A DNA stretch of 21,065 bases from a virus. The DNA is taken from positions 1 to 21,065 of IMG/VR virus record IMGVR_UViG_3300022223_000172; one strand, given 5' to 3'. The notes beneath the pieces were generated by a model, which searched no databases, had not been told where the DNA came from, and saw only the letters and a list, made by a program, of their open reading frames with translations. Positions 1-11,036 of this stretch are shown piece after piece; positions within the stretch are counted from its first letter, which is position 1, and each line of letters starts with the position of its first letter. The translations under genes were made by a program, and so were the position numbers.

Positions 1-282
1 CTGGGACAGCCGGGCGGATGCTGACGAGGCAAGGAGCTCTTGGGACAGCCGGGCGGATGCTGACGAGGCAAGGAGCTCTTGGGACAGCCGGGCGGATGCT
101 GACGAGGCAAGGAGCTCTTGGGACAGTCGAGCGGATGCTGACGAGGCAAGGAGCTCTTGGGACAGCCGAGCGGATGCTGACGAGGCAAGGAATTCCTGAG
201 ACAGGCGGGCGGATACTGATGAGGCAAGGAATTCCTGAGACAGGCGGGCGGATACTGATGAGGCAAGGAATTGCTGAGACAG
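1..282 (-). repeat. 39-bp in-frame tandem repeat array
   Basis: Seven contiguous 39-bp units occupy 282-10, and an eighth begins at 9-1. Each unit encodes 13 residues. The copies nearest the gene start carry GGAATTCC, while the copies nearer the edge carry GAGCTC and are almost identical. This gradient suggests recent expansion or homogenisation from the edge side. The unit length is a multiple of three, so copy-number change would lengthen the protein without a frameshift. There are no spacers, so this is not a CRISPR array. Confidence 0.95.
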
Positions 283-438
283 CTTCGCCGCTGTAGATAC
301 CTGTTTCTCGTAAAGCCCTGAAAAGGCCGATGCGGATTTCTGCATCTTTTGTAACTGACGAGCGAGATCGGCTGAGATGCCTAGGCTTACGCCCATAGAG
401 GTACTGGCTTTCTTAGACTTATCAGACGAGTCGCTCAT
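1..438 (-). CDS. Partial gene of 13-residue tandem repeats
   Basis: An open frame starts at the ATG at 438 and runs without a stop to the window edge (146 codons). Residues 1-52 are a non-repetitive serine/lysine/alanine-rich lead (MSDSSDKSKKAS...). From residue 53 follow seven complete 13-residue repeats and the start of an eighth. The first copies read LSQQFLASSVSAR and LSQEFLASSVSAR; the later ones are all LSQELLASSASAR. The repeats are predicted to be helical and amphipathic, and there is no signal peptide. No good ribosome-binding site precedes the ATG. The gene lies 132 bp downstream of the G-like gene on the same strand, where a Mu-type phage would carry its protease/scaffold gene, but I do not recognise this protein. 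It could be a phage-specific structural or scaffold protein, or a host gene if the prophage is truncated here. Confidence 0.6.
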   Translation of the reverse strand, partial: MSDSSDKSKKASTSMGVSLGISADLARQLQKMQKSASAFSGLYEKQVSTAAKLSQQFLASSVSARLSQEFLASSVSARLSQEFLASSASARLSQELLASSASARLSQELLASSASARLSQELLASSASARLSQELLASSASARLSQ

Positions 439-570: not shown

Positions 571-1020
571 TCATCCCCCCGACGCTCTCTCCAGATGCTC
601 CTGCAGGATATCCAGTATCTCCACCCGGTCTTCTTCCGTCAGCCCGAGGGGTGGCCGGGCGGGGATGCCGCGCTCTTCATCCCCGAACTGGTGGGTAGCG
701 CCGTAGATGCGGTCGGTGCCGAACTCCAGCCCATCGGGGGCGGTCTGGTAGCGCAGCAGGTCGCGCAGGTCGCCCTCCAGCACCAGTATCTTGTTCTGGT
801 TCTTCTTCTTGCGCTTTACGGTCTTGGGGGCGAGCGGGGCCCAGGGGGTGCCGTCTGCGGCTTCTTGCCTGGCCCAGCGCTCGCGGTGGCTGTTGAGCAG
901 GTACTCACCGATATCTGCAAAGGGCGCATCAAGGTTTTGCCCCACCTCAAGCAGTTGCTGTAGCACCTTTTTGGCGGCGCTGTCGTTTTCAATGTCTATA
1001 TAAATACTGGCACCGGCCAT
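571..1020 (-). CDS. G: Phage virion morphogenesis protein (Mu gpG-like)
   Basis: This 149-residue protein resembles the Phage_tail_S/virion morphogenesis family to which Mu gpG belongs, which acts in head or tail assembly. An acidic N-terminal segment (IYIDIENDSAAKKVLQQLLE) is followed by GEYLLNSHRERWARQ and the family pattern DGTPWAPLAPKTVKRKK near residues 56-72. Then come LEGDLRDLLRYQ, a small hydrophobic core (YGATHQFGDEERGIPARPPLGL) and a C-terminal helix. The length is typical. AGGAG six bases before the ATG supports the start. The gene follows the F-like gene after 96 bp containing GC-rich inverted sequence but no further gene, and belongs to the late operon. The family assignment is firm; the exact role is inferred from Mu. 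Confidence 0.85.
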   Translation of the reverse strand: MAGASIYIDIENDSAAKKVLQQLLEVGQNLDAPFADIGEYLLNSHRERWARQEAADGTPWAPLAPKTVKRKKKNQNKILVLEGDLRDLLRYQTAPDGLEFGTDRIYGATHQFGDEERGIPARPPLGLTEEDRVEILDILQEHLERASGG

Positions 1021-1116: not shown

Positions 1117-2343
1117 TCAATTCTGCCTGCCGTAGATCAGCATCCCCAGTCTGCGCTTCTGTATCTCCTTGACCCGGCTCATGGGGATAAACGTCAGTGC
1201 CTCCAGCACCCCACGGCTGGCATTAGCCACCAGAGTTAGTCCCTTGTCTGAACGCCCTGGCAGCTCCACGGCCTTGATAACACGCATTCTCAATACATAC
1301 CGTCCGCTGCCCTTGTGGCGCTCGAACGTGGCCCAGACTTCGAACGGGTCGGTCAGGGCCTCTTCCAGGAGCGGCAGGAACTCGGAACGTTTGATGTCGA
1401 TATGGCTGCCCAGCGCCTCGGCGTTGATCAGCACGGGAAGCCCGCCAACGTTGTAGACCTTCTCATCACCCTCCAGCTGCTTGCGTAGCGCGACCACTAC
1501 CTCTTCCTGGTCGTGGTAGTGCTTGCCGACGTTCGCCTGCGGCTTGTCAAAGGGGATAACGGCGGGGCGGTCATAGGTGGCAGGTCGACCAGAGGTGAGC
1601 TGCTCCCAGGCGTCGCGCCCCTGGGCGCGCCAGGTGTCCATCGCCTCCTGTGAGAGCTGTCGGCCCCAGGCAGCCTGGCCAGGGTTATAGGCAAAGCCGG
1701 GGTCAATGCCTTTGGGTACCCGCACGGTACGAGGCGTGGGGCCACGTGTGCCAACGGTTTGCTCCTCCCATTCAATGGGTGGGGCGGTATCTGGCCCGCT
1801 CTTTCCAACACGTTTTAAATCGCGTTCACTCAAGCTCTCCATGTAGCAATGACAACCCCAGCCATTCTGCGGCCAGTGGGTACTCACCCACGGATCATCA
1901 ATCGGTAATATGATGCCATCCCATGCCACGTGCTCTGGCCTGGGATGATCAACGGAGTCGTTGTGGCGGTAGCGCACATAGGGGCGGGTGCGCTTGACCT
2001 GCTGCACTTGATGATATCGACCCGCATTGTAGGACTGGCGCAAGTTGGTGTCGTAGATGACGCGAGTGCGCCAACCCCGACCGCCGTTGTAGGGCCATCC
2101 ATGTGTGGCAACGATCTGGTCGAACTGCTTGCGGAACTCGGCCAGGGTGGTGCCCTGGGTGATGGCCTGGTCGACGGCGCCGCGCAGGTCGGTGAGTAGA
2201 TCCTCTTTCATCGCCCCGGACACGACGAAGGCGCGGGCGTGCATCCCCTCCCAGATATCGGTCCAGGCGGCGGTGGGCAGATTGACCTTGTCGCGGAAGA
2301 AGGTGATCTGTTCCTGGAATGGGAGGGAGCCGTAATCAGCCAA
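1117..2343 (-). CDS. F: Mu F-like minor head protein with C-terminal nuclease-fold domain
   Basis: The start is a TTG at 2343, six bases after a perfect AGGAGG and overlapping the end of the portal gene by 8 bp. An upstream in-frame ATG at 2427 lies deep in the portal gene and would add 28 unlikely residues. The 408-residue product begins MADYGSLPFQEQITFFRDK, like F proteins of Mu phages. Residues about 50-178 form the Mu F/SPP1 gp7 head-morphogenesis domain, with RTRVIYDTNLRQSYNAGRY (92-110) and the conserved WGCHC at 162-166. Residues about 275-408 form a second domain (HYHDQEE; LPVLINAEALGSHIDIKR; FLPLLEEALTDPFEVWATF; then strands ending in LEALTFIP). This resembles the phage barnase-EndoU-colicin-RelE (PBECR) nuclease folds fused to F-like proteins. 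Such polyvalent domains are proposed to be delivered with virion DNA. The head function is confident; the nuclease activity is inferred. Confidence 0.88.
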   Translation of the reverse strand: MADYGSLPFQEQITFFRDKVNLPTAAWTDIWEGMHARAFVVSGAMKEDLLTDLRGAVDQAITQGTTLAEFRKQFDQIVATHGWPYNGGRGWRTRVIYDTNLRQSYNAGRYHQVQQVKRTRPYVRYRHNDSVDHPRPEHVAWDGIILPIDDPWVSTHWPQNGWGCHCYMESLSERDLKRVGKSGPDTAPPIEWEEQTVGTRGPTPRTVRVPKGIDPGFAYNPGQAAWGRQLSQEAMDTWRAQGRDAWEQLTSGRPATYDRPAVIPFDKPQANVGKHYHDQEEVVVALRKQLEGDEKVYNVGGLPVLINAEALGSHIDIKRSEFLPLLEEALTDPFEVWATFERHKGSGRYVLRMRVIKAVELPGRSDKGLTLVANASRGVLEALTFIPMSRVKEIQKRRLGMLIYGRQN

Positions 2344-3874
2344 GCCCCGCCTCCTGCAGGATATCGTGCCGCCCCGCCAGCTCGGCGGCGGTAAGTGCCT
2401 GGGCCATGATCTCGGCCAGGTCATCACCGTTCATATCGGGGTAGGCCTCAATGAGCTGGTCGCGCAGCTGCTCCAGGGAGTCGGCCTCATCAATGAGGCG
2501 GCGCACGGTGTCGATGAGGCCAGTGAGGGCGGCTGCGCCCTGCTGCTCCAGCTGGGCCCGCTGGGCATCCACCACGCCACCGGCATTTGATGCGTTGGCC
2601 TTCAATGCCGCTCGCACAGCTCCCCGCAACGGCTCGACCGGCTTCTTCTTCACCCACCCTTCGCCGTAGGTCTCCTGAATGTACTCCTCGGTGGGCTCAA
2701 AGCCCATGCTGTAGATCTTCTCATCGCGCTCGGCACGGGTGTTCATGTCCTCCTCTTCGTCGGTCTCGAACTTAAAGCGCGGGCAACGGCGCAGGCTGTT
2801 GATGCCACCGAGGTTGAGCACGGCCAGCGGGTAGACCAGATCACGGGTGAGGGTGGCGGCGATTTGCCGGGCATCAGCCACCAGCAGGTCGTGGCGTACC
2901 TCGTTGTGAACGTTGCCCAGGGCATTGGTGTTGGTGCCCTCGCCGGTACCGCTGGTGAGGGTGCCACCGAGGATCGCCTTGGACTCGCTGCGCTCTGCCC
3001 ATTCGATCATCGCCTGGAACGGATCGGCTGCACCCTTGGCCGCCTCCTTAAACTCAATGCCCATCCCCTCAGGAATGATGCCGGCGGCAGCATGGCCGAT
3101 GTTGACCACGGCACGCAGCAGGGTGGCCTTCTCATTATCACTGGCGCCCACCGGGTAGGTACCGAGGCGCAGCGGCAGACCGTAGATCTCCAGAAACTCG
3201 GCGAGATCCCGCACGCTGTAGTTCTTGAACAGGAACGGCCAGGCCAACACCCGGTGCAAACCGCCACGGGTGAGGTAGCCGCTCTTGGCCTGGTGGCGAT
3301 GAACGATCCAGCCGAAGGGCTGCAGCGGCTCGCCGTCGGTACCCGTGCCGCGCAGGCGCAGCTCGGTGCGGGTATCGCGGTCTACAGTAAACCAGCGGTG
3401 GGGGCGGCACTGAATATCGGGCAGCCACTCGCGCCCCTCGCGCTGCCACTCCATCTCCAGGCAGGAGTAGCCGTGGCCGATGGCGCTGGCGGCATCGGTG
3501 ATCACATCCTCAATGTCGAGATCCTGCATCATCTCCTGCAGCGCCTCGGCGGCCTTCTCTTCGGCGGCGCTGGCGTTACGCGGGGGAACGATGCCCCAGT
3601 CGAGCCCCAGCAGGGAGAGTTTGCGCTTTTGCATCTCGGCGAAGATGTGGGCGTCTTTCTCCTCCATGTCGTCGAACAGATCGCACTGGGCCAGCATGTC
3701 GCCCTGCTCGGCGTTCTGCAGAATACTGGCCAGCCGGGGCGGGGTGAGGCCGCGTGTAGGGTGGTTGGCAAACTCCGAGTGCAGTGATGCGACGCGGGCG
3801 GTTTGCGGCTCCTGGATGTCGGCCAGCTTGAACGGCTCGCCGGTGCGCGGATCGATGATGCGGGTTTGGGCCAT
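2336..3874 (-). CDS. Portal protein (DUF935, Mu gp29-like)
   Basis: This 512-residue protein of the DUF935/Mu gp29 portal family forms the dodecameric ring at the head vertex through which DNA is packaged and the tail attaches. It opens MAQTRIIDPRTGEPF, typical of the family. Central segments include AEMQKRKLSLLGLDW, GYSCLEMEWQREGREW, HRHQAKSGYLTRGGLHRVLAWPF and a stem-like region around FLEIYGLPLRLGTYP. The acidic, glutamine-rich C-terminus (about 410-512) is a predicted helical extension. The ATG overlaps the stop of the preceding small gene by one base (TGATG), implying coupled translation. The terminase lies just upstream and the F-like gene downstream, the standard packaging cluster. Length is normal for the family and nothing seems broken. 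Confidence 0.93.
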   Translation of the reverse strand: MAQTRIIDPRTGEPFKLADIQEPQTARVASLHSEFANHPTRGLTPPRLASILQNAEQGDMLAQCDLFDDMEEKDAHIFAEMQKRKLSLLGLDWGIVPPRNASAAEEKAAEALQEMMQDLDIEDVITDAASAIGHGYSCLEMEWQREGREWLPDIQCRPHRWFTVDRDTRTELRLRGTGTDGEPLQPFGWIVHRHQAKSGYLTRGGLHRVLAWPFLFKNYSVRDLAEFLEIYGLPLRLGTYPVGASDNEKATLLRAVVNIGHAAAGIIPEGMGIEFKEAAKGAADPFQAMIEWAERSESKAILGGTLTSGTGEGTNTNALGNVHNEVRHDLLVADARQIAATLTRDLVYPLAVLNLGGINSLRRCPRFKFETDEEEDMNTRAERDEKIYSMGFEPTEEYIQETYGEGWVKKKPVEPLRGAVRAALKANASNAGGVVDAQRAQLEQQGAAALTGLIDTVRRLIDEADSLEQLRDQLIEAYPDMNGDDLAEIMAQALTAAELAGRHDILQEAGLG

Positions 3875-7033: not shown

Positions 7034-7253
7034 GTTGTTGTTCCGTTCGTTCTCTTAGTGAAAGACAGTGCACGCAAATACCCACCTCAATGCGGTGGGC
7101 GGCAAGCGGCTCAAGGCAGTCGGGGCAGCAGGGCTCGCCATCGAGCATGTAGGGGGTATAGCGGCGTGCTGCCCGCTTCCTTACTTCTGCAATGGCGGCC
7201 TCACGCTCCTGTACCTCACGTCGTTGCGCCTGTTCGTATTGCCACTCGTCCAT
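7023..7253 (-). CDS. TraR/DksA-type C4 zinc-finger protein
   Basis: This 76-residue protein has an N-terminal charged helix (MDEWQYEQAQRREVQEREAAIAEVRKR) and a C4 zinc finger made of CPDC and CVHC separated by 15 residues. This is the short TraR-like form of DksA, lacking the long coiled-coil half. Such proteins bind the RNA polymerase secondary channel and alter promoter use without ppGpp, and many phages and plasmids carry them. Here it sits inside the late operon between the outer spanin and the gp25-like gene, as in several Mu-like phages. Family assignment is good; action on polymerase is inferred. Confidence 0.85.
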   Translation of the reverse strand: MDEWQYEQAQRREVQEREAAIAEVRKRAARRYTPYMLDGEPCCPDCLEPLAAHRIEVGICVHCLSLRERTEQQHGS

Positions 7254-7256
7254 GCG

Positions 7257-7553
7257 TCACTCCGGTGGGGTGAGTGCGTTGGGTGAGATGGCATCGGTAT
7301 GTGTTGCCTCAATAATGGCGACAAGCTCTTCAGCATAAACACGGCGTAGACGATCACGCTCTACCAGACGAAAGTAGGCATTGTCTGACAGGCAAATCAA
7401 TTCATTTGCTGACACAGCAGGAAGCAATGGTCTGACAGGTAGAGGTAGCGGCTGTGAGACATAGCGAACAGACGATGGACTACAGGCAGGCAGGACGATC
7501 ATCAGTGCCAGCATGGCGATAAGGAGGAGGAAAGACTGTATACCCTGATTCAT
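7257..7553 (-). CDS. Outer-membrane spanin-like lipoprotein (Rz1-like)
   Basis: The product from ATG 7553 begins with a hydrophobic signal (about 7-22) ending in the lipobox LPAC, which puts the lipidated cysteine at residue 24. A proline-rich segment (PLPLPVRPLLP) follows, as in Rz1 proteins, then a helix (FRLVERDRLRRVYAEELVAIIE). An in-frame GTG at 7562 gives three more residues and overlaps the i-spanin stop (GTGA); GGTGAG five bases before the ATG favours 7553. It would sit in the outer membrane and, with the inner spanin encoded just upstream, fuse the two membranes at the end of lysis. The role rests on the lipobox, proline content and gene order, not on close sequence match. Confidence 0.75.
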   Translation of the reverse strand: MNQGIQSFLLLIAMLALMIVLPACSPSSVRYVSQPLPLPVRPLLPAVSANELICLSDNAYFRLVERDRLRRVYAEELVAIIEATHTDAISPNALTPPE

Positions 7554-7558
7554 GAGTC

Positions 7559-7816
7559 TCACCCTGCGTTGTCCAGATGATCGCGCAGGCCGGCCTCGAC
7601 TTCACGCTTAAGAGTCTGCTGCTCACTGCGGTGGCGCTGCTGCACCTCTTCACGCGCCTGGTCAATGCGTTGTACGGCGACGGCAACGATGTTAGCCACC
7701 TCGGCACGTTGGCGTTGTTGCTTGGCCTCGGCCTGGTGGCGCTTGCTGCTGAGACGAAAGAAGACCGCCAGGGCGGCAGCAATGGCAGAGAAGAAGGCGA
7801 GGACTCTAGTCAGCAT
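7559..7816 (-). CDS. Inner-membrane spanin-like protein (Rz-like)
   Basis: The start is the ATG at 7816, with AAGGAG seven bases upstream; an in-frame ATG at 7897 lies inside the holin-like gene and lacks a site. The 85-residue product has an N-terminal membrane segment (LTRVLAFFSAIAAALAVFF) followed by a long, charged, glutamine-rich helix (about 23-80) predicted to form a periplasmic coiled coil. This is the layout of the inner spanin, which pairs with the lipoprotein encoded just downstream. It overlaps the holin-like gene by 11 bp and the lipoprotein frame by four bp if the GTG is used. It also resembles small Mu-phage proteins such as DUF2681. Confidence 0.72.
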   Translation of the reverse strand: MLTRVLAFFSAIAAALAVFFRLSSKRHQAEAKQQRQRAEVANIVAVAVQRIDQAREEVQQRHRSEQQTLKREVEAGLRDHLDNAG

Positions 7817-8770: not shown

Positions 8771-8850
8771 AAGTAGTGATATTCTAATATACTGTTAGTC
8801 CACGATGTGGATATGTCCAAAATACAATGGTCGATGTAAGGAACACCGGG
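8771..8850 (+). promoter_or_regulatory. Promoter/operator-like region of the methyltransferase cassette
   Basis: This AT-rich stretch holds a 12-bp dyad ATATT-CT-AATAT (8779-8790) overlapping a good -10 candidate TATACT (8788-8793), though without a convincing -35. A second dyad, TCCAC-GAT-GTGGA (8799-8811), would sit at the start point, followed by GGA-TATG-TCC (8809-8818). ACTGTTAGTC (8791-8800) resembles half of the C-box of restriction-modification controllers, but no controller gene is nearby. TAAGGA (8837-8842) is the ribosome-binding site for the ATG at 8851. Confidence 0.45.
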
Positions 8851-9951
8851 ATGGTTGCAGAGACACAGAACGCTAGTCTACACCGGGCGAAGGGTGCCAA
8901 GGAGGACGAGTTCTACACGCAACTCGAAGACGTGGAGCGTGAACTGAAGCACTACCGAAAGCATTTCAAGGGGAAGGTTGTCTACTGCAACTGTGACGAC
9001 CCAAGGGTTTCCGCCTTCTTCCACTACTTCTCATACAACTTCGAAAAGTTGGGTCTCAAAAAGCTGATAGCGACGTGCTACAAGAACCATGAACGCGACC
9101 TGTTCAGCACGCATGACAGCGAACGTGCGATCTTCCTTGAGTACGAGGGCGACAAGAATGGTGACCGTATCCCCGGCGATGATGAGATTGAGGTAAAACA
9201 CCTCGTCGGTGATGGTGACTTCCGGAGTGCAGAAGCGATTGAACTTTTGAAGCAGGCAGACATCGTTGTTACGAATCCTCCCTTCTCTCTCTTCCGAGAG
9301 TTTGTCGCGCAACTCAATATGTATAACAAAAAGTTCATCATATTGGCGAACCAAAACGCCATTACTTACAAGGAAATTTTTCCCCTCCTTCAAAAGGGGA
9401 AGATATGGGTGGGCGCAAACAGCGGAGACATGAGTTTTCGGGTTCCCGATCATTATACACCAAGAGCAACGCGGTTCTGGGTGGACGAAGATGGTCAAAA
9501 GTGGCGGAGCTTCGGGAACATGTGCTGGTTCACTAACCTGGACTACAAAAAGAGACACGAGGATCTTACCCTCTACAAGACCTACACCCCTGATGAATAC
9601 CCAAAGTATGACAACTTTGACGCGATAGAAGTTAGCAAAGTTGCAGATATCCCCATAGATTACGAGGGCGTAATGGGGGTCACAATTGGGTTTCTTACCA
9701 AGCACAATCCTGATCAGTTTGAGATCGTTGGTATTACCAAGACTTGGTATGGCGGCGCAACTAAGATATATCCACAGCAAACACAAGTAAGCACAAACGG
9801 CAAGACTAGTCAGGTTGGGAAGCTCAATGATGGTCCTGTTTTGAGGGTGGACTCACCACCGACGGAAAAAACTTACTACAAAGTAGACGGTGAGTGCTAT
9901 GTACAGATGTATGCTCGCGTATTGATTCGGAACAAGAAGGTTGAAGCCTGA
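8851..9951 (+). CDS. EcoRI-family adenine-specific DNA methyltransferase
   Basis: The 366-residue product is read from the ATG at 8851, which has TAAGGA eight bases upstream; the in-frame ATG at 8827 has none. It resembles the M.EcoRI family (N6-adenine methylation using S-adenosylmethionine). The N-terminal KEDEFYTQLEDVERELKHYR (FYTQ at 21-24) and VVYCNCDDPRVSAFFHYF (NCDDP 47-51) mark the cofactor region. The catalytic motif is TNPPF (141-145) in DIVVTNPPFSLFREF, followed by NQNAITYKEIFPLL and the recognition half. The stop overlaps the ATG of the nuclease gene by one base (TGATG). The gene is on the strand opposite the phage genes and looks more AT-rich (two 60-base lines counted at 48% and 38% GC). 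It could protect DNA against the partner nuclease or against host restriction. The recognition site cannot be read from sequence. Confidence 0.9.
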   Translation: MVAETQNASLHRAKGAKEDEFYTQLEDVERELKHYRKHFKGKVVYCNCDDPRVSAFFHYFSYNFEKLGLKKLIATCYKNHERDLFSTHDSERAIFLEYEGDKNGDRIPGDDEIEVKHLVGDGDFRSAEAIELLKQADIVVTNPPFSLFREFVAQLNMYNKKFIILANQNAITYKEIFPLLQKGKIWVGANSGDMSFRVPDHYTPRATRFWVDEDGQKWRSFGNMCWFTNLDYKKRHEDLTLYKTYTPDEYPKYDNFDAIEVSKVADIPIDYEGVMGVTIGFLTKHNPDQFEIVGITKTWYGGATKIYPQQTQVSTNGKTSQVGKLNDGPVLRVDSPPTEKTYYKVDGECYVQMYARVLIRNKKVEA

Positions 9952-11036
9952 TGGAAATCGAACTCAAGAAAATCCGCGTTGAGGAATTGGTAGAAGACTA
10001 CCAGGATGACGCCGAGGACGGTGTGCTCGGATACAGCGGCAAACTCGACATTCGTCCGCCCTACCAGCGCGAGTTCGTCTACGATGCCAAAGAGCGGAAC
10101 AAGGTCATTGACACGCTGACCCAAGACTTCCCACTGAACGTCATGTACTGGTCTGTGCGAGATGATGGAACCTACGAAGTAATCGACGGGCAGCAGCGAA
10201 CCATCTCCATCTGCCAGTACGTCGATGGCGAGTTTGCATGGAATGACCTCTACTTTCATAACCTTACCGACGACCAGCAGGAGCAAATCCTCAACTATGA
10301 ATTGATGGTCTACTTCTGCCAGGGCACGGACAGCGAGCGGTTGGCATGGTTCGAGACCATCAACATCGCCGGAAAGGTATTGACTAAACAGGAACTTCGC
10401 AACGCGACGTATGCGGGGCCGTGGCTGTCGGACGCCAAGAAGCATTTCAGTAAGACCGGTTGCCCCGCGTACCAGGTCGGTGGCGATCTCATGAAGGGAT
10501 CGCCCATTCGCCAAGAGTACCTCGAAACTGTCCTTGACTGGATCAGTGACGGAAACATTCGGGAGTACATGGGAAAACACCAGCACAACTCCAAGGCGAA
10601 CGAATTGTGGGTGTACTTCCAAAACGTGGTTGCGTGGGTGAGGGCAACCTTTCCGGTGGAGCGCAAGAAGGAAATGAAAGGGCAACCGTGGGGTGTGCTC
10701 TACAACGAGTACAAAGACGTGGCTCTCGATCCTGACGAACTTGAGGATCGCATCTCAGCGCTCATCCAAGACCCGGACGTAACGAACCATCGCGGCGTTT
10801 ACCTCTACGTACTGAACGGTAAGGAGAAGCATCTCAACATCCGCCAGTTCGATGAGAGGATGCGTCGTTCAGCGTTTGAGCGGCAGAAGGGCGTGTGTCC
10901 GGACTGCGGCAACACCTTCAAGATAGATGAGATGGAGGCAGACCATATCACGCCGTGGCACGAGGGCGGTAAGACTGAGGCGGACAACTGTCAGATGCTC
11001 TGCATCCAAGACAACCGAAAAAAGGGAGGGAAATGA
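9951..11036 (+). CDS. DUF262 protein with C-terminal HNH nuclease domain
   Basis: This 361-residue protein has an N-terminal DUF262 (ParB/GmrS-like) domain with PPYQREFVYD (36-45) and DGQQRTISI (79-87), the nucleotide-binding motif of the family. GTDSERLAWFETINIAGKVLTKQELRNA follows. The C-terminus carries an HNH module: CPDC (316-319), ADHITPWHEGG (D331/H332/H337), N346, CQMLC (347-351). The usual fourth zinc cysteine (C-x-x-C-N) reads CIQDN here, with an aspartate. DUF262 nucleases include the type IV enzyme GmrSD and SspE. This one lacks DUF1524 and is paired by a one-base overlap with a DNA methyltransferase, suggesting a restriction partner. Whether it cuts unmethylated or modified DNA is unknown. 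It ends 25 bp from the convergent mor gene with no clear terminator. Confidence 0.87.
   Translation: MEIELKKIRVEELVEDYQDDAEDGVLGYSGKLDIRPPYQREFVYDAKERNKVIDTLTQDFPLNVMYWSVRDDGTYEVIDGQQRTISICQYVDGEFAWNDLYFHNLTDDQQEQILNYELMVYFCQGTDSERLAWFETINIAGKVLTKQELRNATYAGPWLSDAKKHFSKTGCPAYQVGGDLMKGSPIRQEYLETVLDWISDGNIREYMGKHQHNSKANELWVYFQNVVAWVRATFPVERKKEMKGQPWGVLYNEYKDVALDPDELEDRISALIQDPDVTNHRGVYLYVLNGKEKHLNIRQFDERMRRSAFERQKGVCPDCGNTFKIDEMEADHITPWHEGGKTEADNCQMLCIQDNRKKGGK

Follow-up and report, generated by a model that had tools for sequence, protein, structure and literature searches.

What is the gene of tandem 13-residue repeats that adjoins the head genes of a Mu-like prophage, and what might it do? 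The stretch of DNA analysed (21,065 nucleotides, hereafter the window) corresponds to C6, one of the 197 contigs of a genome, and its base 1 is a contig end that lies inside the repeat array. The original prediction, made from this truncated gene, offered an expandable scaffold or structural protein, or a host gene at the edge of a truncated prophage. The architecture of the gene, its slot in the prophage, its family and the turnover of its array are solidly established by the genomic comparisons reported here; the function that we propose is put forward more cautiously.

A repeat array split between two contigs

In the window, a minus-strand frame (438..1) runs to the contig end without meeting a stop and provides the N-terminal 146 codons, the 5' half of the gene (1..438). 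As predicted, it shares its strand with, and adjoins, a G-like virion morphogenesis gene (571..1020, minus strand; PF05069, E 2e-32), which forms the upstream border of the slot. The first 52 residues (283..438, minus strand) are unique, with a charged start, MSDSSDKSKKAS, and had no match beyond chance in Pfam, PHROG, NCBIfam or PADLOC. From residue 53 to residue 146 follow seven full copies of LSQELLASSASAR and a partial one (LSQ), in line with the seven or more copies that had been proposed. At the DNA level this is a 39-bp tandem array (1..282, minus strand) with three diverged units by the unique start, four protein-identical ones, and LSQ at the contig end. TRF placed the array at 2-269, with 6.9 copies and 95% matches, and the lag-13 autocorrelation of the protein reached z 15 against shuffles. 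Between units, pN/pS was 0.18 in the array's own frame and 0.83 or more in the other frames, the one exception being an opposite-strand frame (0.24) that is interrupted by stops. The low value in the minus-strand frame indicates that the array is translated and under purifying selection; an opposite-strand reading of the array (SSWDSRADADEAR), which contains stops and has no second half, was ruled out. The array is real.

The array recurs, identically oriented, at the end of a second contig of this genome, C47 (5097 bp); nothing else in the genome matches the first 1.5 kb of the window. The frame of the repeat gene carries on across the contig end, its 3' half occupying L003:4224-5096 on C47 (minus strand, outside the window). 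After its stop come a full-length Mu-type protease I (L003:2960-4087; PF10123, E 5e-112), which is the downstream border of the slot, a head protein and the major head protein gpT, so that the adjacent sequence shows the phage going on. A single Mu portal gene and a single G, both on C6, are present in the genome, as is a single I, located on C47; the contigs are thus the two halves of one prophage, and the assembly break between them is caused by the array. With portal, G and I present once each and divided around the repeat gene, the idea of a host gene at a prophage edge was abandoned.

On the C47 side the array has three identical units and then two diverged ones. Taken together, the two halves have identical central units and diverged units at both edges, the usual sign of expansion from inside. 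This is the reverse of the earlier impression that the outer copies were identical and the inner ones diverged, which arose from the truncation of the array at the contig end. Once a terminal base is trimmed from each contig, exact overlaps of 23, 62 or 101 bp are obtained, and given these alternatives a total of ~9-10 units applies only if the contigs join once.

Additional cargo between Mu G and I

The repeat gene is an additional cargo gene (moron) in the slot between G and I. In Mu nothing but regulatory sites (a terminator and a late promoter) and a gyrase site lies in this gap, while in Pseudomonas phage JBD30 the position is filled by AcrF1/aca. In the Mu-like prophages of G582 and G967, too, a repeat gene lies between G (PF05069) and I (PF10123); their slots (loci L048 and L071) contain the relative plus other genes. 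Outside the array the gene has a GC content of 0.465-0.50, against 0.61-0.62 for I and G. Simple promoter and terminator scans of its strand, which covered sigma70 types, found none.

Three further observations concern these prophages. The G582 and G967 slots contain additional small membrane-protein genes without Pfam matches (L048:6775-7701 and 9296-10096; L071:5756-6649 and 7147-7761), among whose products proteins of 266 and 297 aa are related to each other (44%) and resemble membrane proteins of the abortive-infection type. A type II restriction-modification (R-M) pair in the window (8827-11036, plus strand; PADLOC MTase_II 7e-128, REase_II 1e-136) runs opposite to the prophage late genes and is a second defence cargo of the same element. 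Also in the window, a Mu gpF-like head protein (1117-2427, minus strand) ends in a PBECR2 nuclease-like domain (PF18810, 1.1e-17).

A shared membrane and SH3 half with lineage-specific repeats

In the half of the protein encoded on C47, the repeats are followed by a helical linker, one transmembrane (TM) segment (LRFLLWLLNGIILPIFAAAMGGIIATQYI), a single strong hydrophobic segment (KD 2.11), and an SH3_3 domain at residues 231-285 of that half (PF08239; 38.9 bits against a curated cut-off of 27, E 1e-9). SH3_3 is a common domain, and cell wall binding is frequent among its members. The nearest solved structure is 2kq8, an SH3 domain from a cell wall hydrolase (E 4e-5), and weak matches to lysis and amidase PHROGs run through the SH3 part. 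Modelled from a single sequence, the repeat half was predicted as one continuous helix (best model pLDDT 88, pTM 0.37; three of the five models 52-61), which makes this a weak prediction. The model of the C-terminal half was poor (pLDDT 44) and could not support a fold search. Against PADLOC-DB 2.0.0, the C-terminal half had no match at E 1 and the N-terminal half matched only a helicase, at 0.021.

Two PHROGs of unknown function, 7086 and 23259, match the TM and SH3 half (1.8e-11 and 1.5e-12); in the 355-position profile phrog_7086 only positions 171-353, corresponding to the C-terminal half, are matched. Together with the 'SH3 domain-containing protein' of P1-like phage-plasmids they are the closest known proteins, likewise membrane cargo of temperate phages. 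In contrast, the N-terminal half of the window gene is unrelated to theirs and carries a 13-residue array, whereas the E. coli proteins show a weak period only. A profile search with the C-terminal half recovered relatives in other Pseudomonadota and in phage-plasmids of E. coli and Citrobacter. Almost every pair is alike in the TM and SH3 half (the window gene reaches 2e-27 against the protein from a Mariprofundaceae metagenome-assembled genome (MAG) and 7e-18 against the P1-like proteins), whereas the N-terminal halves are unlike between lineages, the best cross-lineage values being 4e-4 (Mariprofundaceae/G752) and 0.016.

A clear, lineage-specific tandem array is present in eight lineages (z 7.6-33), and the period differs among them: 13 residues in the window gene, 16/32 in G752, 19 in Citrobacter (LAQGSTIADSVSLSERMTK) and in G582/G967, 20 in G219, 23 in Mariprofundaceae, 24 in G588 (IAEKYKNLMSPSSSISALIATQDT) and 43 in G383. 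Family-like relatives in G737, G894, G108 and G051 have no clear array, and none of ~25 other SH3_3 matches with a scorable N-terminal part rose above z 4.0. The P1-like gene was present in 69 of 5426 E. coli genomes, on plasmids only; E. coli chromosomes searched with the G588 relative gave no match. Neither did INPHARED phages, searched by tblastn with three family members, and in IMG/VR the C-terminal and N-terminal queries matched only C47 itself and the Citrobacter query nothing. A scan of genome contigs yielded only two true relatives.

The original prediction of an expandable array is borne out by the congeners G582 and G967, whose Mu-like prophages are related. The C-terminal parts of their orthologues, 201 residues each, align without gaps at 88% identity, and yet the arrays have 8 units in G582 and 11 in G967. 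The unit consensus also differs, nearly all units being PKF..MM in one and PQF..MF in the other. Such unequal unit numbers with separate consensus sequences amount to array expansion plus homogenization.

Outside Mu-like prophages, the genomic company of the relatives is informative. In P1-like phage-plasmids the relative sits where simB-simC would be, in a locus flanked by icd (96% to P1) and pmgC (98%); simA is kept ahead of it, as is a gene for a 168-aa protein whose N-terminus is signal-like. The superimmunity genes simABC are listed among the eight variable regions of P1-like elements (PMC9603915) and are dispensable in P1 (PMC10695390). Elsewhere, a relative lies inside a type I R-M operon (L047, Mariprofundaceae), and others adjoin PtuAB-like (Septu) and AbiD-like genes (L050), a PifA-like KAP NTPase (L051) and a GajB-like UvrD helicase with DUF4238 (L049). 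These few loci hint at an association with defence genes. We found no literature on SH3, TM or repeat anti-phage proteins that describes this TM and SH3 repeat family, which is uncharacterized and mostly tied to mobile elements or defence genes.

Several features of these loci deserve mention in their own right. The Mariprofundaceae locus (L047:935-10040) is a tight operon of hsdM, a DUF1016-type gene (PADLOC PDC-S02), hsdS, the repeat/TM/SH3 gene and a gene for a 1269-aa protein that matched nothing in Pfam, NCBIfam or PADLOC; it is possibly a new defence module. Near the G588 relative, a 228-aa open reading frame (L046:4495-5181) has a short match to penicillin-binding protein 1a glycosyltransferase domains (E 3e-21). 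SimA of the P1-like phage-plasmid (L008:6415-6906) is 163 aa long, against 52 aa for P1 SimA (L016:22913-23071). Since the two align at 93% along 41 residues, the P1 protein could be a truncated version.

A putative exclusion protein at the cell envelope

Relatives of the repeat gene occupy positions that are used for genes against rival viruses or against immunity, and the protein is therefore probably an undescribed anti-virus shield. More specifically, we propose, as a reading about as likely to be right as wrong, a prophage-encoded inner-membrane exclusion or defence protein whose cytoplasmic repeat rod can expand. It would be a single-span protein of the inner membrane, composed of an N-terminal helical repeat rod, one TM segment and a C-terminal bacterial SH3 domain; the rod is probably cytoplasmic and the SH3 domain probably periplasmic, to judge from a slight charge bias and a low-quality model. 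Such a protein would most likely act at the envelope, guarding the lysogen against other phages. Its SH3 domain may anchor it to peptidoglycan or to an incoming tail, while the rod could multimerize, or touch a phage or effector partner, with its length and sequence shifting through unequal recombination. This mechanism is less certain than the function.

In favour of exclusion are the TM and SH3 half common to the relatives, the G-I slot and its use for AcrF1, the replacement of simB-simC, the defence neighbours, the AT-richness of the gene and the turnover of its array. Against it count the small number of loci behind the defence-neighbour association, the commonness of SH3_3, the fact that SimC is not a homologue, the failure to recognize a promoter of the gene's own and the weak basis for the topology. 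As the P1-like relatives hold the simB-simC position after simA, they are likely to serve a similar purpose; a comparison of SimC with the SH3 protein from that slot nonetheless gave no match at E 0.01, and P1 SimB and SimC, which have signal-like N-termini, differ from the family in having no SH3 match and no repeats. A helpful parallel in design is CwpV of Clostridioides difficile, in which a conserved anchor is joined to a type-variable half of tandem repeats that act against phage DNA entry (PMC4737114). Like CwpV, the repeat protein would belong to the envelope, and both combine an anchor with variable repeats, but this is analogy and not homology: CwpV units have 79-120 residues and lie on a Gram-positive cell surface, whereas the units here are short and probably cytoplasmic.

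The strongest competitor, a reading that we regard as doubtful but worth keeping in view, is that the gene is peptidoglycan-binding envelope cargo that alters the wall of the lysogen, the timing of lysis or stress tolerance, and that its repeats serve as no more than a passive spacer. The frequent wall binding of SH3_3 domains, the hydrolase SH3 domain 2kq8 as nearest structure and the weak lysis and amidase PHROG matches are all consistent with it. However, the gene is away from the lysis genes, its relatives are in superimmunity, anti-CRISPR and defence positions, and a passive spacer gives no reason to expect the wholesale replacement of repeats.

It is less probable still that the protein aids an incoming phage against host immunity, in the manner of AcrF1. 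The AcrF1 gene of JBD30 does occupy the same position between G and I, and the prophage has an R-M pair as well, but relatives also occur in apparently non-phage R-M operons and defence loci of hosts, and a membrane protein with an SH3 domain is unlike known anti-CRISPRs; AcrF1 itself is a small cytosolic inhibitor, unrelated to the repeat protein.

A virion structural or scaffold protein, as first suggested, now seems very improbable. The gene is indeed among the head genes and on their strand. The Mu scaffold, however, is encoded within the I protease, and here protease I is a separate, full-length gene downstream, the repeat protein itself having no PF10123 match. The repeat gene is an addition that is missing from the G-I position of Mu and JBD30, its product has a TM and SH3 half, and relatives occur outside phages, beside defence genes. 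Finally, that unrelated contig ends merely have a simple repeat in common is scarcely credible: both contigs do end inside the array and their terminal bases conflict, but the array occurs in just two places in the genome, both of them contig ends and in the same orientation and frame, the single-copy Mu genes are divided over C6 and C47 in Mu order, and a collapse cannot yield diverged units on both sides.

Returning to exclusion, we tentatively suggest, with rather less confidence than for the individual protein, that these genes encode a widespread undescribed family of membrane proteins borne by phages and defence islands, in which a conserved TM and SH3 anchor is combined with a lineage-specific, repeatedly replaced and homogenized repeat rod that serves as a fast-evolving recognition or length module for phage exclusion. 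One relative is present in E. coli phage-plasmids, which makes the family directly testable in laboratory strains. If the suggestion is correct, two classic cargo positions, the P1 superimmunity operon and the G-I slot of Mu (home of AcrF1 in JBD30), would gain an exclusion or defence family, and the rapid turnover of the repeats would make it possible to study whether their length or their sequence determines specificity in a phage arms race.
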